33,188 bases of DNA from Thermotogaceae bacterium (GTDB lineage Bacteria; Thermotogota; Thermotogae; Thermotogales; Thermotogaceae): assembly GCA_026993805.1 (NCBI GenBank), contig JALWSA010000068.1:1-33188 (forward strand). The letters are read 5' to 3'. Position numbers and translations under genes: made by a program. How positions within the stretch are numbered: position 1 is the first letter of the stretch; each line of letters opens with the position of its first letter. Under the pieces are notes generated by a model, which was not told where the DNA came from, did no database searches, and was given only the letters and a program-made list of their open reading frames with translations. Below are positions 2,231 through 33,188 of the stretch, one piece after another.

Positions 2231-3754
2231 GTGATTCGAATAAAAAGTGCAAAACTCATTTGGAGTTTCCTTGTACCCATAATTCTCTTGTTCCTTTTAA
2301 TGCTACTGGGCAGATATTCCACGACTCCTGAGGGTATAGTCCTCAGAAAGCTTTTGGTTTCAGAAAACGGTAAAACGAAATTCATGGAACTTCCAGATTA
2401 CACCAGAGTCAGAAATCTAACAATCAGAAGCTACAAGGTGTACCTTCAAGGACCATACAAGGGATTCTTAGTGATACCACGTCCCAACGCTCAAGCCATC
2501 TGGGTCTACATCGACGGCCTATTGATATTTCAGCGTGGAAGCGAAAGATTGGCCTCCAACATGTGGACCTACACTTTCACTATTCCAGTGGATCTATCCG
2601 GTGGTGTACATGAGCTCGTAATAAAACTTCTTGGGGGATACGACATCGGATTCATGTCTCCCCCATTTCTCTCGGAAAATCCTTGGACAAAGGTGAGCGT
2701 TTCAAACGTGCTTTTCAGCCACTTCTACAATATTGCAATGGGAATAGCTTTGGGATTTTTCATATTGCTGATGATATTGGGAATGTCTTTGAAATACAAC
2801 AGAAACGTCTACATATATATGTCCATATCAGCTCTATTCACGGCTATGTATATGTCGGACTTCGTCTATCGCGAATTCTCTGGCACCCTCTTTACATACC
2901 TGGGAATGAAGAGGGCTTTTTACTCATTTACTTACTTGGCCATTGCATTCCTATACGGCGGAATGGAGAGGAGGGTAAAAAAGAGCAACTTATTCCCTTA
3001 TTATCTAACAGCCTCATTGATAATCTCTGCCATTATACTCGCATCACCTTCTTTCCACTTCGCCAGGGAATTTCATTTAAAAGCCCTCTTATTTCTCCTT
3101 GTCATGCTGGTATCCACTATATGGGTCGCATTTCTAACCCACGATGAAAGATACATATGGCCATTTTTCTTCTTGGGATTGGTAATAGCACATGACGTGA
3201 TAGCTTTGATATTCGACTTGAAGGATCCATTAATTCTCGGATATGGAGTCGTCATTACCGGAATAGCACTGAGCATTATTCTTGTCGAAGATTACAGAAG
3301 CCTCTTCTCATCGATGGTCAAAAGCTACGAGAGATCCATCACAGATCACCTGACTGGCGCCTACAGCCGTGGCTATCTCAACGAAATAAAAACCGATCCA
3401 AACACGAGTATCGTCTTCATAGATCTGGATAACTTCAAGAAACTAAACGATGAAAAAGGCCACGATTATGGAGACAAGATTCTCAGAGCATTGGTAGACA
3501 CGGCAAAAGAAAGTATTAGGAAGAGCGATGCGATTGTGAGGTACGGCGGAGATGAGTTCGTTTTAATCCTTAGGAACTGTTCCGAAGAAAATGCAGAAGA
3601 GGTTGCAAAGAGAATACTCGAAGACTTCAAAAGAGAGACCGGTGAGGAGTTTTCCTATGGTATATCCAGCTGTTCTACCAGCCTGAAAGATGCTTTGATA
3701 GAAGCGGATGATAAGATGTATGAAATGAAAAGAAAAAAGGGTGTGCTATCATAA
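2231..3754 (+). CDS. membrane-bound diguanylate cyclase (GGDEF)
   Basis: Likely synthesises cyclic di-GMP from two GTP. Residues about 9-27 form an N-terminal membrane helix, followed by a beta-rich extracytoplasmic domain (about 30-165), then some seven hydrophobic helices (about 165-350), the layout of 7TMR-DISM type sensors. The C-terminal GGDEF domain begins at DHLTGAYSRGYL; the active-site signature is intact (GGDEF at residues 439-443), and an RKSD inhibitory I-site (430-433) sits exactly five residues before it, so product inhibition is expected. No EAL or HD-GYP domain is present. The GTG at 2231 follows the previous stop by one base, but the only Shine-Dalgarno-like sequence, GAGGTGAT (2228-2235), overlaps that GTG, so the true start may be a rarer codon such as ATA at 2240. 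The sensed signal is unknown. Confidence 0.92.
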   Translation: MIRIKSAKLIWSFLVPIILLFLLMLLGRYSTTPEGIVLRKLLVSENGKTKFMELPDYTRVRNLTIRSYKVYLQGPYKGFLVIPRPNAQAIWVYIDGLLIFQRGSERLASNMWTYTFTIPVDLSGGVHELVIKLLGGYDIGFMSPPFLSENPWTKVSVSNVLFSHFYNIAMGIALGFFILLMILGMSLKYNRNVYIYMSISALFTAMYMSDFVYREFSGTLFTYLGMKRAFYSFTYLAIAFLYGGMERRVKKSNLFPYYLTASLIISAIILASPSFHFAREFHLKALLFLLVMLVSTIWVAFLTHDERYIWPFFFLGLVIAHDVIALIFDLKDPLILGYGVVITGIALSIILVEDYRSLFSSMVKSYERSITDHLTGAYSRGYLNEIKTDPNTSIVFIDLDNFKKLNDEKGHDYGDKILRALVDTAKESIRKSDAIVRYGGDEFVLILRNCSEENAEEVAKRILEDFKRETGEEFSYGISSCSTSLKDALIEADDKMYEMKRKKGVLS

Positions 3755-19541: not shown

Positions 19542-20375
19542 ATGGATTTGTTAAAAGATTTTCCCATACCCATACTTCATATGACGCACAAGTTAGCAGA
19601 TCCAGACAGCTTCGCCGGAGTATTTTGGGGCAAAAAGATCTTCGGTGGATGCACTCTCGTGCATGATCCCGACACCGCAACCAAGAACCTCATGGAGCGA
19701 CTCCGCTTTAAAAGCATACCATGCAGAAGCTTTAAAATGGCCTTCGCATACGATGTGGATAGGGAAGAAAGGCTACCATGCCATCCCGAAAGGCTCGTTG
19801 TCTTCGATCACCATGTGAAAAACTCCATAGAATGCGAGCGGAAGTTCCACAGAGTCAGAGCATCTCTTTCCATGAACCTCTACGACATATCTAAGGACTG
19901 CGGATTTAAACTGGACGAAGATGTGCTTTTGGCCTTTGCCGCCGCTCTTGCAACTGACACGGCTTTTTTGAGAACAGCTGGCTCTGAAGAACTCACCTAT
20001 CTCGGAAAATTCTTAGGGAGAAGGAAAATGGAGGATGTCTTTGAAGTCGTCCTTGGAAACAGAATAGAGCTCAAAACTTTCATAAAAGATTTGGAAGGCA
20101 TTGAAGTATCCAATGGAATATGCTACGGGCGCTTTTCCCGTGATGATCACTTCATATTCTTCGCGGATTCTTTGATGTACTCCCTGGGATGCAAAACGGT
20201 TGTGGGGCTGCTCGAGTGGGGGATATGGGTTTTCACAAGAAAGAAGGATGTGCAGCATGTATTCTCAAAGCTCAAGGAACTCGACCGGCTTGGATACGAG
20301 AGAAGAGTGGGAAAAATCTATGGATTGAAGGATCTGGATTTGATCAAAGAACTACTGAGTCAAAACCGCCGCTGA
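19542..20375 (+). CDS. DHH-superfamily phosphoesterase
   Basis: A 277-residue protein carrying the metal-binding motifs of DHH phosphoesterases: HMTHKLADPDSFAG at residues 13-25 (the H..DxDS motif I), DVD near 71-73, and VVFDHH with DHH at 89-91. A further Asp comes in ALATDTAFLRTAG. Related enzymes (NrnA, RecJ, GdpP) cleave nanoRNA, DNA or cyclic dinucleotides; the C-terminal part is too divergent for me to say which, and a clear DHHA1 glycine motif (GGH) is not seen. The ATG at 19542 is chosen because upstream codons fall within the divergent minD gene; there is no strong Shine-Dalgarno. Its 3' end overlaps convergent ybeY by 32 bases. Confidence 0.82.
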   Translation: MDLLKDFPIPILHMTHKLADPDSFAGVFWGKKIFGGCTLVHDPDTATKNLMERLRFKSIPCRSFKMAFAYDVDREERLPCHPERLVVFDHHVKNSIECERKFHRVRASLSMNLYDISKDCGFKLDEDVLLAFAAALATDTAFLRTAGSEELTYLGKFLGRRKMEDVFEVVLGNRIELKTFIKDLEGIEVSNGICYGRFSRDDHFIFFADSLMYSLGCKTVVGLLEWGIWVFTRKKDVQHVFSKLKELDRLGYERRVGKIYGLKDLDLIKELLSQNRR

Positions 20376-20772
20376 GAATTTCTCTCACGTACTCTTCCTG
20401 CTTTTTGAACATCTCATCCGCTCTCTCAGTGGAAAACTCGTGGTCATAGCCGCAAAGATGGAGCGCGGCATGAACGAGAGTTATCACCATCTGCTCGTTA
20501 AAAGATTTTCCGTTTCTCTCTGCCTCCTTTTTCACATATTCGGGGCAGATGATCACCTCACCGTAGATTTCATCGTCGTCGTAAACGAATGTAAGAACGT
20601 CTGTAGGACCATTGCCTTTTCTGTAAGCCTCGTTGATCTGGGAGATGACCGTCTCATCAACGAAAGCTACCGAAACATCCTTTGGATACCCTTCCCTGTC
20701 CAAAACATACTCCAGCATCTTTTCAACCACATCCAAATTCAACTTATAAAGGGTGTCATTTCTTAACTCCAT
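20344..20772 (-). CDS. ybeY: endoribonuclease YbeY
   Basis: A 142-residue YbeY, the metal-dependent endoribonuclease involved in 16S rRNA 3' maturation and ribosome quality control. The zinc motif H-x3-H-x5-H is intact as HAALHLCGYDH (His101, His105, His111), preceded by GEVIICPEYVKKEA and PTDVLTFVYDDD, which are also family blocks. Its start overlaps the end of the HD-domain gene by 17 bases, so phoH, the HD gene and ybeY form one coupled operon, a grouping common in bacteria. The 3' end overlaps the convergent DHH gene by 32 bases. Confidence 0.95.
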   Translation of the reverse strand: MELRNDTLYKLNLDVVEKMLEYVLDREGYPKDVSVAFVDETVISQINEAYRKGNGPTDVLTFVYDDDEIYGEVIICPEYVKKEAERNGKSFNEQMVITLVHAALHLCGYDHEFSTERADEMFKKQEEYVREILSGGFDSVVL

Positions 20773-22105
20773 TCAGCGCCCTCACCTCGATGCTCTCCTT
20801 TGGATACTCTATCCTGTGATGATAAAAGCTCATTATCACCCTGACGAATTCATCTATTATGTTCTCAAGATCTTCAAGGGTGAGACCCGATGAATCAAGC
20901 TGCTTCTCACCGAATATCCCCATGACGACCTCTTCGACCGTCGATCTTATCTGAGAATGGGTCTTTCCCTTCAGAGCTCTTGAAGCCGCTTCAACGGCAT
21001 CTGCAAGCATTATTATCCCCGATTCCTTGAATCTCGGCTTCGGACCCGGATACCTGAAATCATCCTCACTGACGTTCGGATCGAGTTCCTTCGCCTTGTT
21101 GTAGAAAAAGACCTGAACCCTCGTCCCATGATGCTCGGCTATTACGCATTCTATTGGAATGGGAAGCCTGTACTTTCTGGCGAGTACCCTACCGTATTTA
21201 ACATGCTCGTCGAGTATAAGATGGCTCAGAAAAGGACTTATTCCGTCGTGAGGATTTTCCCCTTCGAACTGATTCTCTATGAAGAACACTGGCCTTTTCA
21301 CCTTTCCTATATCGTGATAGTACGCAGCCACGCGAGCCAAAAGCGAGTTCGCTCCAATCCTTTCAGCCGCTGCTTCTGCAAGGTTAGCCACCATGCTGCT
21401 GTGATGATAGGTGCCAGGCGCTTTCATACTCAAGAGCTTCAAAAGAGGGTGGTTCAGATTTCCAAGCTCTATAAGTCCTATGTTCGAATAAATCCTGCTC
21501 GCGTATTCTATATAAGGCAGCAGCCCAAGGATGATAATGGAGGATATGAAAGGATTGGCGGCTGCCAGAGGTATTTCAAGCTTACCAACGGTTCCGATTA
21601 TAAACACTTTCATGGAAAAGAGGACTGCCTGCACTATGGACATGATAAGCGCGGATTTCAGAACATCGATTCTCCTGTAAACATACCTCAAAGTGATGGA
21701 AGCTATTATGGACATGATAAGCCCTTCGAGCAGGATCCAAATGTCTTCGTTGAAGTGCACGAACATGAGTACCGACAAAAAAACACCTATTCCACGGGCG
21801 GAAGCTTCCTCGAATAGGAGTATTGAAAGTGCGGCAAAAAGATATATGGTGGAGAGAGCAGATCCGAACTTTGCGATAACAGCAGAAGAAGCAAGAGAAC
21901 CTAAAATCAAGAGCGTGTGGAGGGTTGCAACATAGCTTTTGTGTATTCTGAAAAACGGGGACTTAGACAGCATGTCATAATTGACGATCATCCACACAGC
22001 TGAGGATATAAGAATTTCCAATACCAATCTGCTTATGTTCACTGGGAAAACGACATTTGCAGCAGCCACTGCAAGAAGCGGTGTTATGAACACCTTCCAT
22101 GACAT
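20756..22105 (-). CDS. 7TM-HD phosphohydrolase (PgpH-like, probable c-di-AMP phosphodiesterase)
   Basis: A 449-residue membrane protein: about seven hydrophobic helices in residues 5-205, then a cytoplasmic HD domain with GTYHHSSMVANLAEAAAERIG, HDIGK (His264-Asp265) and a second histidine block ILDEHVKYG...IAEHHGTRV. PgpH enzymes with this 7TM-HD arrangement hydrolyse c-di-AMP to pApA, and PgpH commonly sits between phoH and ybeY as here. Typical PgpH is about 700 residues with a large extracellular 7TMR-HDED domain between the first helix and the 7TM block; that domain is absent here. The start ATG is three bases after the phoH stop. Substrate is inferred by family. Confidence 0.88.
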   Translation of the reverse strand: MSWKVFITPLLAVAAANVVFPVNISRLVLEILISSAVWMIVNYDMLSKSPFFRIHKSYVATLHTLLILGSLASSAVIAKFGSALSTIYLFAALSILLFEEASARGIGVFLSVLMFVHFNEDIWILLEGLIMSIIASITLRYVYRRIDVLKSALIMSIVQAVLFSMKVFIIGTVGKLEIPLAAANPFISSIIILGLLPYIEYASRIYSNIGLIELGNLNHPLLKLLSMKAPGTYHHSSMVANLAEAAAERIGANSLLARVAAYYHDIGKVKRPVFFIENQFEGENPHDGISPFLSHLILDEHVKYGRVLARKYRLPIPIECVIAEHHGTRVQVFFYNKAKELDPNVSEDDFRYPGPKPRFKESGIIMLADAVEAASRALKGKTHSQIRSTVEEVVMGIFGEKQLDSSGLTLEDLENIIDEFVRVIMSFYHHRIEYPKESIEVRALNGVKK

Positions 22106-22108
22106 TAT

Positions 22109-23068
22109 TTATCTCTCCCTTTCCCTGCTGCGTTCGTACTCCTCGTACGCCCTTATTATTCTTCTGACCAAGGGGTTCCTTACAACATCATCCTCAGTGA
22201 GGTAGACGAAGGCAATTCCTTCAACATCTTTCAAGATCTTCTGACATTCTATCAAACCAGACTTTTCTTTCTCTATATCCAGCTGCGTTATGTCACCCGT
22301 TATGACAGCCTTCGAATTGAAGCCAAGTCTCGTTAGAAACATCTTCATTTGATGGTATGTCGTGTTCTGGGCTTCATCCAGTATGACAAACGAATTGTTG
22401 AGAGTTCTCCCTCTCATGTAAGCGAGCGGGGCTATCTCGATTATCCCTTTTTCCCTGTACGAATAGAACCTGTCCGGGTGGATCATGTCCATTATCGAAT
22501 CGTACAAGGGTCTCAAATAAGGATCGACCTTATCCATGAGATCTCCGGGCAGAAATCCGAGTTTCTCACCGGCTTCAACCGCGGGTCTCGTCAAAATTAT
22601 TCTCTGAACCTTTCCACTTCTCAGATAATCCAGAGCCATAGCAACGGCCAGATAAGTCTTCCCCGTTCCAGCCGGACCTATAGCAAAAACCACGTCATGG
22701 GCTCTTATCGCCTCTATGTACTCCTTCTGACCCTTTGTCTTGGGCCTAACCCTTGTCCCCAGAATCGAAGACTTGGCTATATCCATTAATGTAAGACCGT
22801 TTTCACCATCTAAGTATTTCTGAACTATGTATTGGAATTCATCCCAACCTATCAGCTTTCCTTCGCGAGTTATCTCTATAAGCTCCTTGAATACTCCTGT
22901 TGCCGCATCTACCTTCTTTTCATCCTTGCCTCTTATCCAGATCTCATCATCTATCAAAGATATCTCCACATTGAACATCCTTCTGATAAACCTCGCCTTC
23001 CGGTCGTACTGACCGAGTATCTCAACCATCTCGACATCCCTCGGAACACTTACCCTTTTAACAGCCAC
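22109..23068 (-). CDS. phoH: PhoH-like ATPase
   Basis: A 319-residue PhoH-like protein (YbeZ type). A KH-like N-terminal region (about residues 10-70, EILGQYDRKARFIRRMF and IWIRGKDEKKVDAA) is followed by the P-loop ATPase: Walker A GPAGTGKTY at 131-139, PAVEAGEKLGFLPGDL, Walker B-like FVILDEAQNTT, and ITGDITQLD. PhoH proteins are RNA-linked ATPases that act with YbeY in ribosome maturation, in line with the gene order phoH-HD-ybeY. The start is GTG at 23068, with GGGGAGG about 11 bases upstream. It is separated from rpsB by the rpsB terminator, so it needs its own promoter; TATACT on the minus strand about 50 bases upstream is a candidate. Confidence 0.95.
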   Translation of the reverse strand: MAVKRVSVPRDVEMVEILGQYDRKARFIRRMFNVEISLIDDEIWIRGKDEKKVDAATGVFKELIEITREGKLIGWDEFQYIVQKYLDGENGLTLMDIAKSSILGTRVRPKTKGQKEYIEAIRAHDVVFAIGPAGTGKTYLAVAMALDYLRSGKVQRIILTRPAVEAGEKLGFLPGDLMDKVDPYLRPLYDSIMDMIHPDRFYSYREKGIIEIAPLAYMRGRTLNNSFVILDEAQNTTYHQMKMFLTRLGFNSKAVITGDITQLDIEKEKSGLIECQKILKDVEGIAFVYLTEDDVVRNPLVRRIIRAYEEYERSRERER

Positions 23069-24616: not shown

Positions 24617-26767
24617 GTGGTTAGAGCAATCCTTCCGGTCATTCTAATATTAACGATCACAATTGCTTTGCCAAGAGCGCTATTGCTTTATAAATCCTCA
24701 GAAACCGGATACGGTGAAAATATACTTCTTAAGTATATAGCACCAGCTTTAAGAAAAGTGGGAGAAGATTACGATATAGTGAACGTAGAAAAAACGATAC
24801 CTCGCATGGATTGGTATGACATCGTCGTTAGCTGTTTTTACTCTCCTCAAATGAAGCACGCGAAGGAATACATAAGAGAACTTGCACGTTATGTACACAA
24901 TGGCGGGAAAGTTTTCATTATAAACAACATGGGTGCCTTTTCTGATCCACTGGGGAACAGTCCCACACTCGATGACTTGAATTCAGTCTTCAATCTTCTG
25001 GGAGCCGAATACGAATATGGATGGCATAAAGCAAACCTGAAATACGAATACGACAGCGACTACATCCTGAAGCCACCGCCCAAGAACATAAGAAGAGACA
25101 TTGAAAAATGGTGGGTCTTTTCAAAAAACGTGAAAGTTGTTCTGAAAGCATCCTACAATTCCAACGAAGTTCCTCTGGTATTCTTTGGCAGAAATGGCGG
25201 AATAGCCGTCTTGGATCACGCCTTCGACGAGAAAGGAGTTCCATTTATAGACCTCGGAAAAATCGTTAGAGAAATCATCGTCGATCCAAGTGAAAACTCT
25301 CTTATCATGTTTGGAAAAAATACGGACGTTGAGATGACTTTCAAAAACGCGGGCTTTGAAATCTTCAAGGTCTCTTATGATTCTCTCAAAGACATAGATT
25401 TCAACTTTTTCAAGCTGGTTATATTCATAGGAAACAATCTTGAAAAAAGGCTAAAAGATTTCTCTCAAATGGAAGGCATTGTTCTATGGATAGGCGATGG
25501 AAATGAAACAGCAGAAGGAACAGTGGTGCTTAAAGCCACACTTGATATACCATACGATATTCCTCTTTTTCAAAAAAAGTTGAGCTATTTCAAAGCACCC
25601 GAAAACGCAATACCAATAATCGAAGTGAATGGAAAGACTGTGGGATGGATATCAAAAGGATTGATATACATTCCTTCGGGTATGGCTACAAAGGCCACAA
25701 GAGGCATCTTGATGGATGCCGTTTTAATTGCAGCCAAGAGACTCGCAGTGCCTGTCATAAACGGTTTTTCCGTTTTCTTGGACGATTTTCCCCTGCCTGC
25801 ATACAACTTAAAGCGAAAGGAAATAACGAGGGAATTCGGAGACATAACAGACGCGGATTTCTATTACAAAATATGGTGGGATGATATGAAAAAGGTGGCA
25901 AAAGACCTGGGAATAAGGTATATTTCCGCACTCGTTACCAGTTACAACAACAAGCCCGATCCACCTTTTGACTTCACAGAATTTCTTCAAACTGAAGCTC
26001 CAGTAAGGTTCCTTGAAAAAGAGCATAAAACATTAGAAATAGAGCTTCACGGCTACAATCACCTCCCACCCCTGTCGAAAAACTGGGAAGAAAAGAATCT
26101 CATAGAGTCTTACAAAGCACTTAAAGCATTCTTGAAAAACGTGTGCGATTTTAAACCGATCGTTTTCATAGCACCAGACAACAAAGTAGACTGGCTCGGC
26201 ATAAAAGCCGCAAAAAAAGTTTTCCATTCAATAAAAGTAATTGGAACTACCTATTACGGTAACCCAGAAACCACTTTCTCAGAATTCGCTGTGAAAGACG
26301 ATGTGATCATTCTTCCGAGAACAACGAGTGGTTATTACCCGTTGAACAGGTTAATATATGAATCTATCTCTACTGTGCTCAACATAGGAACCTATCAGTA
26401 CTTCATCCATCCAGATGACTTGTTTTCCAAGCAAAGAAATCCAAAAGGTTTAACTTGGGATGAAATGATTCAGAATTTCAGGAACTTCTTGAGGGTCATG
26501 AAATCCACATATCCTTGGCTGAGAATGCTCGGCGCAAGAGAAATAGCCTACATTTTCACTGATTATTTCAAGTATCCGCCAAAGATCAGCTATCTTGAAG
26601 GTGAAATAAGAATATCTCTTCCAGAAGGTGCTGTTCTTCCCAGATACTTCTTCATCAAATCTTCAAACGGTGTGGTTATAACTGGTGGCAAGGTAATATA
26701 TGATATGAAGAATTTCAAAGTAGTAGAAATGAATAGCTATGAGATGATCGTTAAAACTTCGAGGTGA
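24617..26767 (+). CDS. DUF2194-type PelA-like polysaccharide deacetylase, first gene of pel-like operon
   Basis: A 716-residue exported protein. Residues 1-20 form a hydrophobic signal sequence or anchor. The N-terminal half (about 21-370) has Rossmann-like alternation (WYDIVVSCFYSP, ELARYVHNGGKVFIIN), as in DUF2194 proteins. The C-terminal half looks like a carbohydrate esterase family 4-like deacetylase barrel: FLDDFPLP (Asp389, Asp390), ELHGYNHLPP (His478 and His482, the H-x3-H metal pair), FIAPDN and FIHPDD (His598). In Pel systems the PelA deacetylase partly removes acetyl groups from the GalNAc polymer. The glycoside hydrolase domain of Pseudomonas PelA is not apparent. GTG start with AAGGAG upstream. 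PelG follows after four bases. PelA-like role is inferred from motifs and neighbours. Confidence 0.72.
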   Translation: MVRAILPVILILTITIALPRALLLYKSSETGYGENILLKYIAPALRKVGEDYDIVNVEKTIPRMDWYDIVVSCFYSPQMKHAKEYIRELARYVHNGGKVFIINNMGAFSDPLGNSPTLDDLNSVFNLLGAEYEYGWHKANLKYEYDSDYILKPPPKNIRRDIEKWWVFSKNVKVVLKASYNSNEVPLVFFGRNGGIAVLDHAFDEKGVPFIDLGKIVREIIVDPSENSLIMFGKNTDVEMTFKNAGFEIFKVSYDSLKDIDFNFFKLVIFIGNNLEKRLKDFSQMEGIVLWIGDGNETAEGTVVLKATLDIPYDIPLFQKKLSYFKAPENAIPIIEVNGKTVGWISKGLIYIPSGMATKATRGILMDAVLIAAKRLAVPVINGFSVFLDDFPLPAYNLKRKEITREFGDITDADFYYKIWWDDMKKVAKDLGIRYISALVTSYNNKPDPPFDFTEFLQTEAPVRFLEKEHKTLEIELHGYNHLPPLSKNWEEKNLIESYKALKAFLKNVCDFKPIVFIAPDNKVDWLGIKAAKKVFHSIKVIGTTYYGNPETTFSEFAVKDDVIILPRTTSGYYPLNRLIYESISTVLNIGTYQYFIHPDDLFSKQRNPKGLTWDEMIQNFRNFLRVMKSTYPWLRMLGAREIAYIFTDYFKYPPKISYLEGEIRISLPEGAVLPRYFFIKSSNGVVITGGKVIYDMKNFKVVEMNSYEMIVKTSR

Positions 26768-26771
26768 TATT

Positions 26772-28142
26772 CTGGCGGGAATAGGCTTTAAGCTTAGAGA
26801 AGTCATGGGAAAAGGTTTGATTACATTTGATATCGGCGCAATAATTTACGCCATTCTTATTACTTCCGGCCCCTGGATAATTTCGTCCACTTATATGTTT
26901 CTAATGGTCGCAATGCTGAACGTAGACGAATTTTTTTCTTCAAGCTTGATCTACTCGTTCATATTCTCAATGATAATATCCGGTGGATTCTCATTCTTGG
27001 TGACCAGATACATATCAGATGAGTTTTACATAAGCAACATTGAAGCCGTCAGAAGAGCATATGGAGGATCTATATTTTTGGTGGCACTAATAGCGCTCGC
27101 TCTTTCCATCTCTTTCTTTCTAATCAATCCATACTACAGCTTTTTGGATGCATTTCTTGCTATCTACGCTTTAACTTCTCTATCTGTTTTGTGGATACAA
27201 ATGGTATTCGTGGTATCATCCGAAAAGTTTCTCCCCGTTATCCTTTCTTATCTCAGCGGTTTCACACTTGCAATGATATTATCACTCATCTTTAAACAGA
27301 AATTCCTTCTCTTCTTCGATGCAGGAATCTCCCTCACAGTGGGTTTGCAGAATATCTTCATCATTAACGAAATAGGAGTGCCAGACAAGCTATCACTTGA
27401 ATTCTTGAAAGCCTTTAAAAAATATCCAGAGAACCTGCTAATCGGTTTTGGATACTACTTTGCCGTATGGGTTGATGACCTGATAGCTTGGGCTATAAGG
27501 GGAAGAGAAATAATCCCAGGCTTTGTGTTTTCACTCGATTACGATGTTCCTATGTTCTTAGCCTACTTGTTTGTAATTCCTTCTCTGTCCATGTTCATAT
27601 TCTTCGTTGAGACGGAATTCTACACAGAGTACAGAAAATTTTACCTTCAAATCGAAAAAGGCGAGCGGCTTTGGAAAATAAGTAATCAGACCGAACGATT
27701 GAAACAAGCGGTGAGACAGTCGATAGGCTCAATAGCCGCCGTCCAGATAACCATGACTTTCATAGGCTTCGCCATCTCAGAGAGCTTGAAAAGCTTGGGA
27801 ATGTCAGACATAGCGATATATATATTCAAATGGGGGCTTATAGGTGCAGGATTTAATGTGATGTTTTTGACGGCTCTATTAATAAACATGTACTTTGATT
27901 TCAGAGATATCGCATTTCAATCGATTCTCGTGGCTCTCGCGTCTAACATAATTTTTTCTATACTAACAATAAAAACCATGCCTGGTTTTGGCTTTGCCAT
28001 TTCATTTGCCATAAGCTTTATATTCATATCCATAAAGTTCTACGGCAGACTCAGCAACATCATAAGGTATGTTTTCATGCATTCTAAATCTGGACTTGAA
28101 AGATCCAAAGCAAGGAGGTTCAAACCTCATGGCTTCTTCTAA
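26772..28142 (+). CDS. pelG: PelG-like exopolysaccharide exporter, probable CTG start
   Basis: A 456-residue inner-membrane protein with about 12 helices, belonging to the PelG group of the polysaccharide/oligosaccharidyl-lipid flippase superfamily. PelG works with PelD and PelE to move the nascent Pel polymer across the cytoplasmic membrane. Known PelG proteins begin with an AGIGF-L-R-like motif followed by a SSGPW motif; here AGIGFKLRE and ITSGPWIISS are both present, but the first lies upstream of the first ATG (26805). The reading frame extends back to a CTG at 26772, which is three bases after a full GAGGTGAT Shine-Dalgarno (26761-26768), so I place the start there; ATT at 26769 is the alternative. 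Overlaps pelD by 14 bases. Confidence 0.85.
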   Translation: MAGIGFKLREVMGKGLITFDIGAIIYAILITSGPWIISSTYMFLMVAMLNVDEFFSSSLIYSFIFSMIISGGFSFLVTRYISDEFYISNIEAVRRAYGGSIFLVALIALALSISFFLINPYYSFLDAFLAIYALTSLSVLWIQMVFVVSSEKFLPVILSYLSGFTLAMILSLIFKQKFLLFFDAGISLTVGLQNIFIINEIGVPDKLSLEFLKAFKKYPENLLIGFGYYFAVWVDDLIAWAIRGREIIPGFVFSLDYDVPMFLAYLFVIPSLSMFIFFVETEFYTEYRKFYLQIEKGERLWKISNQTERLKQAVRQSIGSIAAVQITMTFIGFAISESLKSLGMSDIAIYIFKWGLIGAGFNVMFLTALLINMYFDFRDIAFQSILVALASNIIFSILTIKTMPGFGFAISFAISFIFISIKFYGRLSNIIRYVFMHSKSGLERSKARRFKPHGFF

Positions 28143-29289
28143 AAATTTTAAACTTTTAATATTTATCGAAATGCCCTTGATATATATTGCAGCTGCTGCT
28201 GCCGATTATCACATTACGAAAAGCTTTCCCATCAAATTTACTTGGCTGGTCCTTCTAATTTACTCCGTTAGAAGAGATATGATTGTTCATGTCATTTCCA
28301 GTGCAATATTCCTGCTGATGATAACATATGAAACCAGATTGGCATTAAATTCTGCAATGGTCCCCTCAACCGTTATTCTTGGAGTCTCCACTTTAATCGC
28401 ACTTATAAACAATTCAAGAGTTCATGGTATTCAACAACTGACATACGACATTCGAGATAGAGAAAAAGAGATAAACGATCTAAAAGAAAAGATCATCTAT
28501 CTCAACTCAATCATAGAGGACCTTAAAAGTAGGATATTCTATGAAGGCGAAGGACTGTCCACGCTATTTCTGCGATTGAAGAATATAAGAACAGATAATC
28601 CGAAACTCTTCTACAAAGACTTTGTGGAAACAATATCTACTTTCTTTTCTATACCGGGCATATCGGTTTATCGTTACAGGAGAGGGTTTTTCAGACTCCT
28701 CGCCGCAACAAAACCAACTACTTTAGGATTTACGTTTCGCGAAGGCGATTCCGTAGTAGTTGATGAAACCTTAAAGAAAGGGTACGCCAAGCTAATCGAC
28801 CTCCTTGATGAAAAACTATCGGATGTTGAACCTTGGATGGCCATTAAAATAGGGGAAGAACCAAAAGGCGTTTTAATCGTCGATGAAATAGACCCTGTAA
28901 AGCTTAAAAAACCTTATGAGAAGTACCTCTCATCTCTCTGTGCATGGTTTGATGTGATGCTGGAAAGAGTAGAAGAATTCGAAATACTAAAAAATCTAAG
29001 ACACTCAGATGGAACCTACCCCATCGAAGTTTACGAAAAACTGAAAAACGAACATATGAACATGGCTGAAAGAGGATTGCCATTTTCCGAAATTTGCGTA
29101 TGTCACGATAATCTATTAGAACTTTTGAGGTTTTTCAGAGAGGACGATATAGCCACAAAAATAAACATCGGTGGAAAAGAATGCTTAAAAGTCCTCCTGC
29201 CGATGTGTGATGAAGAAGGAAAGGAAAAGATAATGAAAAGGCTGAAGGGAAAGTTTGGAGATGATTTGGAAATATGTGATGTGGATTAA
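28129..29289 (+). CDS. pelD: PelD-like c-di-GMP receptor of the Pel complex
   Basis: A 386-residue protein with the PelD layout: about four membrane helices (residues 8-120), a coiled-coil linker (DIRDREKEINDLKEKIIYL), a GAF domain (about 140-290), and a degenerate GGDEF domain at the C-terminus. The active site is lost (NIGGKECLKVLLP in place of GGDEF), but an RxxD motif, REDD at 337-340, is retained; in Pseudomonas PelD an equivalent RxxD binds c-di-GMP and activates polymer export. The ATG at 28129 is used because AAGGAGG lies 10 bases upstream and the earlier in-frame ATG (28069) would add residues that duplicate the end of pelG. It overlaps pelG by 14 bases and pelE by 29. Confidence 0.85.
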   Translation: MASSKNFKLLIFIEMPLIYIAAAAADYHITKSFPIKFTWLVLLIYSVRRDMIVHVISSAIFLLMITYETRLALNSAMVPSTVILGVSTLIALINNSRVHGIQQLTYDIRDREKEINDLKEKIIYLNSIIEDLKSRIFYEGEGLSTLFLRLKNIRTDNPKLFYKDFVETISTFFSIPGISVYRYRRGFFRLLAATKPTTLGFTFREGDSVVVDETLKKGYAKLIDLLDEKLSDVEPWMAIKIGEEPKGVLIVDEIDPVKLKKPYEKYLSSLCAWFDVMLERVEEFEILKNLRHSDGTYPIEVYEKLKNEHMNMAERGLPFSEICVCHDNLLELLRFFREDDIATKINIGGKECLKVLLPMCDEEGKEKIMKRLKGKFGDDLEICDVD

Positions 29290-30061
29290 TTTTGCCTTTG
29301 GAATTTACAACCTGTACATGCTCTTTTCAGGGAAAACAGAATATTTCCTGATCGTATTCGCTGTTAACTTGCTGGTAACTTACATTGCAACTAAGAGCTT
29401 CCCAAGAACCATAATAGCAGCATTGGGGTATCCATTTGCATTACTTCCCGGTTCGGGGAAAGTTTCGTGGGAAAAAAGAGAATATGTTAACGTGAATGTA
29501 ACAGAAGAGCCCGCTGAGAGCGGGGAAGATATTTTGCCTATGAAAGACTACATACTGGCGGGAACTTCTGACGAGAAGAAGTATGCGATTATAGAACTCG
29601 TGAAAAATGCCATTTCAGGGACATTGGACATAGGAGAGGTCGTAGATATCTTGAAAAAATTCATATCAGATGAACACCCAGATGTCGCATTATACGCATC
29701 TGAGAGCATTGAAAAGATAGAATCGCATCTTCTCAAAAGAATGAGAAGTGCCAAAATCTCTCCCTTGGAATTCGCCCAATTGACTTATGCATACATATCC
29801 GCAGAATTTGCGCATGGAAAACTCAAAGAACATTACAGAAACCTTGCTCTAAAAGCTCTGGAAAAGGCAGAAAAAACTGAAGAATATTATGTGCTTTATT
29901 ACAAGCTATCTGGCGATAAAAAGATCTTGGAAGAAGGGCTCCAGAAAACTGGCTCCAAAAAGATAGCAGAAGAACTCATATATGCGGAATTAAAAGACAG
30001 AAATTTCAAGGCAGCTTCTGAGATTCGGAAAAAATACATTCAACCTGCTAACTCTTCATAA
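29261..30061 (+). CDS. pelE: PelE-like membrane/helical-repeat protein
   Basis: A protein of about 266 residues with two or three N-terminal membrane helices (to about residue 60) and a soluble helical C-terminal part with TPR/HEAT-like pairs (GTLDIGEVVDILKKFISDEHPDVALYASESIEKIES-like repeats, then ALKALEKAEKTEEYYVLYYKL). PelE in known systems joins PelD and PelG in the inner-membrane complex and has this layout. The call depends on size, topology and position, as PelE sequences are poorly conserved. The ATG at 29261 lies 10 bases after AAGGGA; a TTG six bases upstream is possible. It starts inside pelD and ends inside the 3' end of convergent pelF (22 bases of overlap). Confidence 0.72.
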   Translation: MIWKYVMWINFAFGIYNLYMLFSGKTEYFLIVFAVNLLVTYIATKSFPRTIIAALGYPFALLPGSGKVSWEKREYVNVNVTEEPAESGEDILPMKDYILAGTSDEKKYAIIELVKNAISGTLDIGEVVDILKKFISDEHPDVALYASESIEKIESHLLKRMRSAKISPLEFAQLTYAYISAEFAHGKLKEHYRNLALKALEKAEKTEEYYVLYYKLSGDKKILEEGLQKTGSKKIAEELIYAELKDRNFKAASEIRKKYIQPANSS

Positions 30062-31422
30062 AGCCTCTTATACGCACTTATCATTTTATCCAAAGAATAA
30101 TGCTTTCTGACTATTCTTCTACCAGCTTCTCCTATTTTCTCTCTCAACTTTCCATCTCTGAGTTCAATCAGTGATTCCGCCATGGAAATATAGTCTTTCG
30201 GTTTCACAACAAATCCTGCTTTTTCCGAGTCCTTTTCTACCATCTCTTTACATCCACCCACATCCGTTGTGACTACTGGTGTACCGCTTGCCATCGCTTC
30301 GAGGATGACTAACGGCTGACCTTCTGAAACACTACTCAAGAGAAGAACATCCATTTTCGGATAAAATTCCTTCGTATCCTGCAATCCGAGAAACTCAACG
30401 GTATCTTCAAGACCGAGGATCTCTATCTCACTCAAAAGCTCTTCTTCATATTCCTCATCCTCAACTGGACCAACTATCATAAACCTAACTTCCGGAATCT
30501 CATCTTTCACTATCCTGATGGATTTTATAGCCGTTTTTAAATCTTTTATTCTGGATATCCTTCCAACGAACCCTATTACATACCCAGGATGAGCTTCTTT
30601 TTGAAGATCGAATCTATCCACATCTATTCCATTGGGAATTATCATCATCTTTCTCCTATCTGCACCCAATTCTAATTGGAACAACTGGTTCTTTTCAAAA
30701 AGTGTGACCAATCTATCCGAGAATTGATATGAAACAGCGCTGATAACTTTGAAAAAACCAATCCAAAGCTTCTTGTAAATCTCCTTAACGAAGGAAGAAG
30801 TGAGAATCTCTCGTTCTCTTTCTCGATGATATATGCCGTGTTCAGTTATCAGCAGCTTCGTGCCGTGGTAGAGTTTCCCAGATATGGCTGTCAGCGAGGC
30901 ATATCCCGTTGTAACCGAATGGTATATATCGCACTTTTCGGGTATGAATTGGAAAGAATTCAAAAATGGAAGAAGGAGATTCCTTATGGTCCAAAAATAT
31001 TCTATAAAACTCTCTTTTTCAAAAAACCTATTGTATACATCGATCAAAACATCCCAAAATTCCTTACTCTTCATTGCAGCTATTACGTCCTTCCCCACTA
31101 TCTTCTCCATGATATCGGCCACAACAGAAGCTATTTTGATGACATTCTGATTGTAGAGCACTCTCTCATATATCTCTCTAAAATACTCACCAGGTGCCTT
31201 TTTACGAGGTCCCCATTCGACTTCCGAAAATATATTCAACACGTTGATCGAAGAAACATTACGGGGAATCTTGTACTTTACTTCTTTTTCCTTTAAATCT
31301 GGGGCAAGGTGATATATGGAGAATTCCACCTCTGGCAAATTCTCCATCAGTACTTGCAACCAACTTGAAACCCCACCCGTTACATACGGATAAGTCCCCT
31401 CGACCATCACACATACTTTCAA
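30040..31422 (-). CDS. pelF: PelF-like glycosyltransferase (GT4), opposite strand
   Basis: A 460-residue cytoplasmic glycosyltransferase of the PelF group (GT4, GT-B fold), which polymerises the Pel chain from UDP-sugars. The N-terminal block VEGTYPYVTGGVSSWLQVL is the hallmark of PelF (DUF3492). The C-terminal domain has FVGRISRIKDLKTAI and the nucleotide-sugar motif E-x7-E as SEGQPLVILEAMASGTP (Glu367 and Glu375), then TTDVGGCKEMV. Unlike in other pel operons the gene is on the opposite strand, with its 3' end overlapping pelE. The TTG at 31422 is preferred, since GGGGTGGGA lies about five bases upstream; a TTG at 31437 is upstream and less likely. A weak promoter is seen at 31447-31477. 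Confidence 0.9.
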   Translation of the reverse strand: MKVCVMVEGTYPYVTGGVSSWLQVLMENLPEVEFSIYHLAPDLKEKEVKYKIPRNVSSINVLNIFSEVEWGPRKKAPGEYFREIYERVLYNQNVIKIASVVADIMEKIVGKDVIAAMKSKEFWDVLIDVYNRFFEKESFIEYFWTIRNLLLPFLNSFQFIPEKCDIYHSVTTGYASLTAISGKLYHGTKLLITEHGIYHREREREILTSSFVKEIYKKLWIGFFKVISAVSYQFSDRLVTLFEKNQLFQLELGADRRKMMIIPNGIDVDRFDLQKEAHPGYVIGFVGRISRIKDLKTAIKSIRIVKDEIPEVRFMIVGPVEDEEYEEELLSEIEILGLEDTVEFLGLQDTKEFYPKMDVLLLSSVSEGQPLVILEAMASGTPVVTTDVGGCKEMVEKDSEKAGFVVKPKDYISMAESLIELRDGKLREKIGEAGRRIVRKHYSLDKMISAYKRLYEELAG

Positions 31423-31446
31423 GTTTTCCCACCCCAAGCGTTTTTC

Positions 31447-31681: not shown

Positions 31682-32674
31682 ATGAAAAACCTCTTGGCTT
31701 TGGTCGTTTTATCCCTCGTTTTCGTTTCGGGATTTTCTTTGCCTCTTGACGATGCCTTAAACACCGCCGTATCGAGCGACACGAGCTATATGGCAGCAAA
31801 AATCGAACTCGAGATAGCAAAAATGGACTACGAAAAAAGCAAGCTCCAGGCTGATACCGAGAGAGACACGCTCCTCGCAGAGCTTTCCTATCAAAAAAGT
31901 CTTCAAAGCTACGAGCTCTCCCTGAAAAACACTTATAAAGAACTCTTAGAAACTATATTCGACCTCATCTCAGACAGAATTTCACTCGATATTGCAAAGC
32001 TTCAGTTAGAAAACGCAGAAGAAGCATACCAAGCCAACAAACGCCTTTTCGAAAAGAGCCTGATCTCCGAAAACGACCTTAAGAGCTCTGAGCTTGATCT
32101 GAAGCAAGCCAGTGCAGACCTTGCCGCAGTGCAGAATTCCCTGAAATTATCAGAAGAGATTTACAAAAGCTATTTCGATGTGGATATAAAAGACATAGAG
32201 ATATCGCTTCCAGAAAATCCTCTCAAAGGGTTATCTTTGGAAGATTACATGGCAAATCTCACATCTGTGAAAATAGCAGAGCTTAACCTGAAGATAGCGG
32301 ATTACGATCTGAAAAATCTCTCCTTAGACGCTTCAACATACGAGAAAAATCGAGCGCAGCTTTCGTACAAAAAAGCGAAGATGGACCACGAAAACACAAT
32401 AAACGAGGCGAAGAAGAACTTCGAAAACTCTATAAACTCCCTTAAGAAAACTCTGGAAAACCTGAAAATCCTAAAGGAGAGCATTGACCTTGAAGAAAAA
32501 ATCCTAAAAGATTTCGAAAAGAGATTCGAAAAAGGTCTGATATCCAGGCAGCAGCTTAACACCCAAAAGATAAAGCTCCTAAATAAAAAGCAAAATTATT
32601 ATTCTCTCCTTAAGACATATTACATATCCTTAATAAATCTTCTGATAGATGCCAAAAAACCCATCTCATTTTGA
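31682..32674 (+). CDS. TolC-family-like helical envelope protein lacking beta-barrel segments
   Basis: A 330-residue exported protein with a signal peptide (MKNLLALVVLSLVFVSG). It contains the twofold repeat of outer-membrane efflux proteins: LxLEIAKMDYEKSKL and AKLQLENAEEAYQANKRLFEKSLISENDL (to residue 132) in the first half, and AELNLKIADYDL with EEKILKDFEKRFEKGLISRQQLNTQ (270-295) in the second. The LISxxxL turns at 126-132 and 286-292 are typical of TolC helix hairpins. TolC has beta strands after each first helix; here the corresponding places (about 58-72 and 216-230) have only short helical linkers, making the protein about 100 residues shorter. It may be a periplasmic helical conduit or spacer rather than a barrel. 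GGAGGAG precedes the ATG. The next gene is also TolC-like. Confidence 0.8.
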   Translation: MKNLLALVVLSLVFVSGFSLPLDDALNTAVSSDTSYMAAKIELEIAKMDYEKSKLQADTERDTLLAELSYQKSLQSYELSLKNTYKELLETIFDLISDRISLDIAKLQLENAEEAYQANKRLFEKSLISENDLKSSELDLKQASADLAAVQNSLKLSEEIYKSYFDVDIKDIEISLPENPLKGLSLEDYMANLTSVKIAELNLKIADYDLKNLSLDASTYEKNRAQLSYKKAKMDHENTINEAKKNFENSINSLKKTLENLKILKESIDLEEKILKDFEKRFEKGLISRQQLNTQKIKLLNKKQNYYSLLKTYYISLINLLIDAKKPISF

Positions 32675-32688
32675 AGAGGTGGTAGCAG

Positions 32689-33188
32689 ATGCGAAAACTC
32701 CTTTTAATTCTGCTACTACTCCCAGCGATGCTTTTTGGAAACGTGTTTGATATCTACCAAAAACGTCTTGAAGACTCCTCTAATTACCTTCAAGCATTGC
32801 TGAATCTGGAGGAAAGCCAGCTGAATCTGAAGCTTTACGAAATTCCCTTCGTTCCGGAAATAGCCCTATCTCTGGGTCCCAACGGAATCGTCATCGACGA
32901 GGATGGGATCCACGACTTCAACTTCTCCATAACCGCGAATTTCATTCACCTCTACGGTTTCAGAGCAGGCCTGTCGTTTCCCTTTTCTGTGAGTCCAGAA
33001 AAACCGGAGATATCACCCGATCTGCCTCTTTTAACGATCTCTAAGGATATAAAAGAAAATTTCGAAACCGCAAAACTTCGCGCCCAAGCATCCTACTTTT
33101 CGGCTCTCTTTTCCCTGACTTCCACGAAAAACTCCATCTTCATAGAGCTGGTGCAGGATATATTCGATTGGCACCACTTGACTGCAAA
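32689..33188 (+). CDS. TolC-family-like outer-envelope protein, 3' end outside window
   Basis: The reading frame is open from an ATG at 32689 to the window edge (166 codons) and is preceded by GAGGTGG. It has a signal peptide (MRKLLLILLLLPAMLFG), then a helix EDSSNYLQALLNLEESQLNL, and then EIPFVPEIALSLGPNGIVI, IHDFNFSITANF and YGFRAGLSFPFSV, alternating strands like the first beta segment of TolC, followed by another helix (ENFETAKLRAQASYFSALFSL). So unlike its upstream neighbour, 14 bases away, it keeps barrel-forming strands. I take it as the barrel partner of a TolC-like pair; a porin-like function is possible. The C-terminal half is not visible. Confidence 0.65.
   Translation, partial: MRKLLLILLLLPAMLFGNVFDIYQKRLEDSSNYLQALLNLEESQLNLKLYEIPFVPEIALSLGPNGIVIDEDGIHDFNFSITANFIHLYGFRAGLSFPFSVSPEKPEISPDLPLLTISKDIKENFETAKLRAQASYFSALFSLTSTKNSIFIELVQDIFDWHHLTA

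Follow-up and report, generated by a model that had tools for sequence, protein, structure and literature searches.

How could a bacterium with an outer sheath make a Pel-type polysaccharide with the component set of a Gram-positive organism, and by which route would such a polymer leave the cell? Thermotogota possess an outer sheath and, like Fusobacteriota, are diderms. The question is raised by a stretch of 33,188 nucleotides from a Thermotogaceae bacterium (contig JALWSA010000068.1), referred to here as the window, in which five adjacent open frames were found at 24617-31437 (Table 1). Four lie on the plus strand, closely spaced or slightly overlapping, and the fifth is convergent, as described in a first-pass annotation that had read them as a DUF2194/PelA-like deacetylase, PelG, PelD, PelE and PelF. 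The 3' ends of pelF and pelE share 22 bases (30040-30061), and because pelF is encoded on the strand opposite to pelA, pelG, pelD and pelE, the five genes do not form one transcript. A tRNA-Glu/Val/Phe cluster precedes the locus by about 200 bases.

We consider it likely (probability roughly 0.85) that these genes specify a synthase-dependent system under c-di-GMP control which makes a Pel-like (GalNAc/GalN) polysaccharide, where we infer both the polymer identity and the regulation by c-di-GMP.

Table 1. Coordinates of the pel genes and of other features discussed in the window
Feature	Position	Strand	Description
pelA-like gene (DUF2194)	24617..26767	+	Predicted Pel de-N-acetylase anchored in the membrane, of B. 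cereus PelADA (CE26) type; without hydrolase domain
pelG	26772..28142	+	Inner-membrane Pel transporter; PF16933
pelD	28129..29289	+	Predicted c-di-GMP receptor: membrane helices, long coiled coil, GAF, shortened degenerate GGDEF with RxxD
pelE	29255..30061	+	Two N-terminal membrane helices and cytoplasmic alpha-solenoid
pelF	30040..31437	-	Cytoplasmic GT4 polymerising glycosyltransferase; NF038011, DUF3492
GGDEF domain	3344-3739		Diguanylate cyclase domain
ybeY, HD-phosphohydrolase, phoH	20344-23068		Pointing away from pel
TolC-like pair	31682-33188		Second gene cut by contig end

Identification of the five components

PelG matched PF16933 at 1.9e-92 (Pfam; 311 bits against a cut-off of 29) and contains 11 hydrophobic segments. 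PelF matched the NCBIfam equivalog NF038011 at 5.1e-101 (339 bits against a cut-off of 100), which identifies it as a GT4 glycosyltransferase of the PelF type. It is the strongest GT4 match in the genome, its N-terminal DUF3492 scored 9.4e-76, and it carries the EX7E motif EGQPLVILE.

The PelA-like protein has a hydrophobic N-terminal helix (residues 1-19) and PF09960/DUF2194 as its sole domain (2.4e-137 in the Pfam search). The hydrolase domain that is fused to the deacetylase in Proteobacterial PelA was not found in it, and a sequence search gave no match to Pseudomonas PelA. Its single match in a PDB sequence search was 9zau (1.3e-28), an entry named "predicted membrane protein". Our own identification of 9zau as the probable B. 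cereus PelADA is based on the fit of its catalytic-residue spacing to the published description, in which D262, D263, H350, H354, R458, H488 and D491 are the metal and catalytic residues (PMC13254593). These correspond to D389, D390, H478, H482, R568, H598 and D601 of the PelA-like protein, and D389 D390, H478xxxH482, R568 and H598-P-D600-D601 are invariant in 24 Thermotogota homologues. From the 9zau match and these motifs, the protein is predicted to be a Pel deacetylase in which every metal and catalytic residue is kept.

By sequence alone, the window PelD had no match in Pfam, NCBIfam, PHROG or the PDB; GAF_3 was matched by 27 of 37 PelD homologues. An AF2 model based on 37 aligned homologues (pLDDT 84.7) contains membrane helices, a long coiled coil, a GAF domain and a small alpha/beta domain, and the top seven Foldseek hits of this model in the PDB were all P. 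aeruginosa PelD (8e-9 to 5e-7, the best at 8.3e-9). The corresponding TM-scores were low (0.27-0.38), which we read as a probable difference in domain orientation. A full-length profile comparison by hhalign with PelDs from Proteobacterial and Cetobacterium pel operons gave 99.4% (3e-21) and brought the RxxD motifs into register. The GGDEF domain of the window protein is shorter than that of P. aeruginosa PelD, and its RxxD sits two residues off the usual spacing to GG. The motif itself (R337-D340 counted from ATG 28129) is invariant in 38 of 38 Thermotogota PelDs and the GGDEF signature is gone, a combination that is the mark of a putative receptor rather than an enzyme. With its membrane region, GAF domain and degenerate GGDEF domain bearing RxxD, PelD is predicted to bind c-di-GMP.

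PelE could be identified by profile comparison only. The protein alone had no match in the profile library, Foldseek gave no significant match and the PDB profile search nothing convincing; hhalign against Proteobacterial PelE gave 95.5% (1.4e-8), compared with 0.1% for mismatched pairs as negative control. Its AF2 model (pLDDT 87.7) has the two membrane helices and the helical-repeat domain, an alpha-solenoid, of a PelE, and pelE adjoins pelD in nearly all loci. These tests therefore bear out the first-pass reading of all five proteins as Pel components, none of which scored better to a non-Pel family.

The start of pelG is probably CTG 26772 rather than the listed ATG 26805, because the conserved N-terminal consensus of Thermotogota PelGs, [ML]AGIGFKL, is encoded from this codon, 11 codons upstream; homology begins at profile position 2, which corresponds to 26775. 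Within 26769-26805 the start codon appears to be non-standard, CTG (or ATT), and the ribosome-binding site overlaps the pelA stop. ATG 28129, preceded by AAGGAGG, is the best candidate start for pelD, pelF probably starts at TTG 31422, and the exact start of pelE is uncertain within 29255-29279.

Elsewhere in the window, a GGDEF domain is encoded about 21 kb from pel, and ybeY, an HD-phosphohydrolase gene and phoH lie on the far side of the locus. The latter arrangement is also found beside pel in two distant genomes (G053 and G054; loci L057 and L067) and could be either a shared ancestral linkage or a coincidence.

Distribution and relation to known Pel systems

In a survey of 103 Thermotogota genomes, PelG scored over the cut-off in 40, and PelF in all of these 40 and in one fragmented genome. 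Comparison of the gene neighbourhoods, as the first-pass annotation had proposed, revealed that the pel genes are kept together in the 40 genomes, with PelG-PelD-PelE as the most constant block. This joint recurrence and the scores to PF16933, PF09960 and NF038011 confirm that the locus is real and not a chance arrangement. DUF2194 was present in 35 of the 103 genomes, every one of them PelG-positive (Fisher 1.7e-22, shared ancestry ignored). A contig scan for DUF2194 gave matches in Thermotogota only, but its patterns were narrow and have no bearing on the wider distribution. In both the PelG and the PelD tree, the window groups with genome G099, its nearest neighbour; genera of different families are mixed in these trees, suggesting some transfer within the phylum.

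The arrangement of the locus varies. Fervidobacterium-like genomes (genus g10) have a split locus with pelA-pelF apart from pelG-D-E, and T. maritima and its close relatives carry two tandem pelG-D-E/F units beside a single pelA. Such a tandem pelG-D-E duplication with convergent pelF is seen in L052 (2993-15529) of genome G093 from the T. maritima group and in L063 and L066, where one PelG copy is divergent and a single pelA and a single GH191 gene are common to both units. Many Thermotogota also have a family of small single-helix membrane proteins (130-235 aa) in the pel operon, which is missing from the window; it is encoded between pelE and pelF in 13 loci, and similar proteins occur in three more.

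The closest parallel in composition is the Gram-positive pelDEADAFG cluster of Bacillus cereus ATCC 10987, in which the same component set is required for Pel (PMC7112168, PMC13254593). Both loci comprise these five components, including an RxxD PelD and a PelA of PelADA type (9zau) with the deacetylase as its only domain, and both are PelB-less, with no PelC candidate beside the locus in the window, in line with the first-pass comparison to Gram-positive clusters. The window differs in its gene order, A-G-D-E with convergent F, in its distant sequences and in a host phylum with an outer sheath or membrane. With pelABCDEFG of P. aeruginosa it has in common the PelD fold, homologues of PelE, PelF and PelG and the c-di-GMP I-site, whereas the PelB barrel, a PelC candidate beside the locus and the N-terminal hydrolase domain of PelA are missing. 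The pel operon of Cetobacterium somerae (Fusobacteriota; NZ_CP092520.1) resembles the window system in its separate GH114, GAF-type PelD, DUF2194, PelE, PelF and PelG, in a diderm phylum and with no PelB barrel found in a PF24604 search. Unlike the window, it is a single operon and encodes a 305-aa beta-barrel-like protein after pelG.

A Pel locus in this phylum is not new as such: Bundalovic-Torma et al. 2020 (PMC7112194) have already counted Pel operons in Thermotogae, in one sentence, and Gram-positive pel has the same components. In the parts of that study available to us, Thermotogae pel is mentioned as present only, and locus architecture, the PelD site, the link to GH191 and the exit of the polymer are not analysed. 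The window locus is a well-supported member of a known system in an unusual envelope.

Polymer synthesis and the associated hydrolase

Most likely, a c-di-GMP-gated PelD-E-F-G synthase complex would extrude a Pel-like polymer that PelA would deacetylate at the membrane, a scheme that has been proposed for B. cereus (PMC7112168, PMC13254593). The window genome has 13 GGDEF and two PilZ matches, and c-di-GMP signalling is therefore present. Diguanylate cyclases would raise c-di-GMP, upon which PelD, with PelE and PelG, would recruit and activate PelF. PelF would then polymerise the UDP-sugar in the cytoplasm and PelG would carry the chain across the inner membrane, where membrane-anchored PelA (DUF2194, CE26-type) may partly de-N-acetylate the emerging chain and render it cationic. 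The polymer might be trimmed or recycled by a GH191-like endo-hydrolase, whose gene lies apart from pel in the window genome and inside the locus in T. maritima.

This hydrolase family is associated with pel across the phylum. Many relatives carry a GH114-like gene next to or inside pel, and GH114/191 was found in 38 of 103 genomes, 34 of which are PelG-positive (1e-16, shared ancestry ignored); the GH114-family gene of the window genome is located elsewhere (C19:3640-4560). The GH114-like protein of genome G093 is identical to T. maritima TM1410, whose gene sits inside the T. maritima pel locus, between pel genes. TM1410 has been crystallised (2aam, 9eux, 9euz) and is the founding member of GH191, but it neither bound nor cleaved fungal galactosaminogalactan, and an environmental GH191 cleaves Pel (PMC12054363). 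The word "operon" occurs nowhere in the text of that paper, and we found no report in the literature of a TM1410 assay on Pel. The locus context suggests Pel as a candidate substrate of TM1410.

The inactivity of TM1410 on galactosaminogalactan could also be taken to indicate that the product of the Pel-like machinery has a different chemistry, with another amino sugar or a mixed composition, in which case the gene names would carry over and the product would not. PelF and PelE have diverged far from the characterised proteins of their families, and the second, divergent pelGDE-F unit in T. maritima and its relatives suggests product diversification. However, no catalytic residue of a proven alpha-1,4-GalNAc deacetylase has been lost from PelA, PelG co-occurs with a galactosaminidase-like family of hydrolases, and the activity of the environmental GH191 on Pel (PMC12054363) points in the same direction. 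We therefore regard a different polymer as quite unlikely and retain a Pel-like (GalNAc/GalN) product as the preferred reading.

Passage across the outer membrane

The PelB barrel (PF24604) was found in none of the 103 Thermotogota genomes by profile search, nor in Cetobacterium, while the same profile matched all five Proteobacterial pel plasmids used as positive control, four of them over the cut-off. The absence of PelB noted in the first-pass annotation thus extends to all genomes surveyed. No PelC candidate adjoins pel among the neighbouring genes of the window and the other Thermotogota loci, and no conserved outer-membrane gene lies beside pel in Thermotogota, where only GH191, the small single-helix membrane protein and lineage-specific genes were seen. 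Exit across the outer membrane would presumably follow a non-PelB route.

The TolC-like pair directly after pelF has signal peptides, no other match to an outer-membrane-efflux family occurs in the genome, and the pair could be proposed as the exit duct for the polymer. This is highly improbable. Translations indicate that in T. maritima and in the PelG-negative genome G089 the orthologous pair opens an operon away from pel, followed by genes for a membrane-fusion-like protein and an ABC ATPase and, in T. maritima (L137 6283-11528), additionally a MacB-like permease; the window pair looks like the start of such a MacAB-TolC-type efflux operon. Presence of the pair does not track PelG either (19/40 PelG-positive versus 33/63 PelG-negative genomes, P = 0.69). 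The pair was rejected as exit duct on both synteny and co-occurrence, and the exit route stays open, as the first-pass annotation had left it.

Alternatively, the polymer may not be exported at all but form an envelope matrix beneath the toga, within the wide periplasm. Such retention would agree with the complete lack of the PelB barrel, given the working controls, and of a conserved outer-membrane gene adjoining pel, but the absence of PelB leaves room for porins or another duct, and we consider retention unlikely. In Cetobacterium somerae, the 305-aa protein encoded directly after pelG (L124 12108-13022) has a signal peptide, a beta-barrel-like sequence and no Pfam match, and as an exit candidate it is a lead only.

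A tentative possibility is that at least two diderm phyla, Thermotogota and Fusobacteriota, use a Pel system that lacks PelB and includes a dedicated outer-membrane step, which could be a new polysaccharide duct or the retention of a cationic polymer under the toga as periplasmic matrix. In a phylum of hyperthermophiles, what had been a passing survey remark becomes a defined system open to testing, with a conserved putative c-di-GMP site in PelD and a deacetylase with a solved homologue. The locus offers a candidate substrate for TM1410, a crystallised orphan of GH191, and poses the question of how Pel may pass an outer membrane without PelB.
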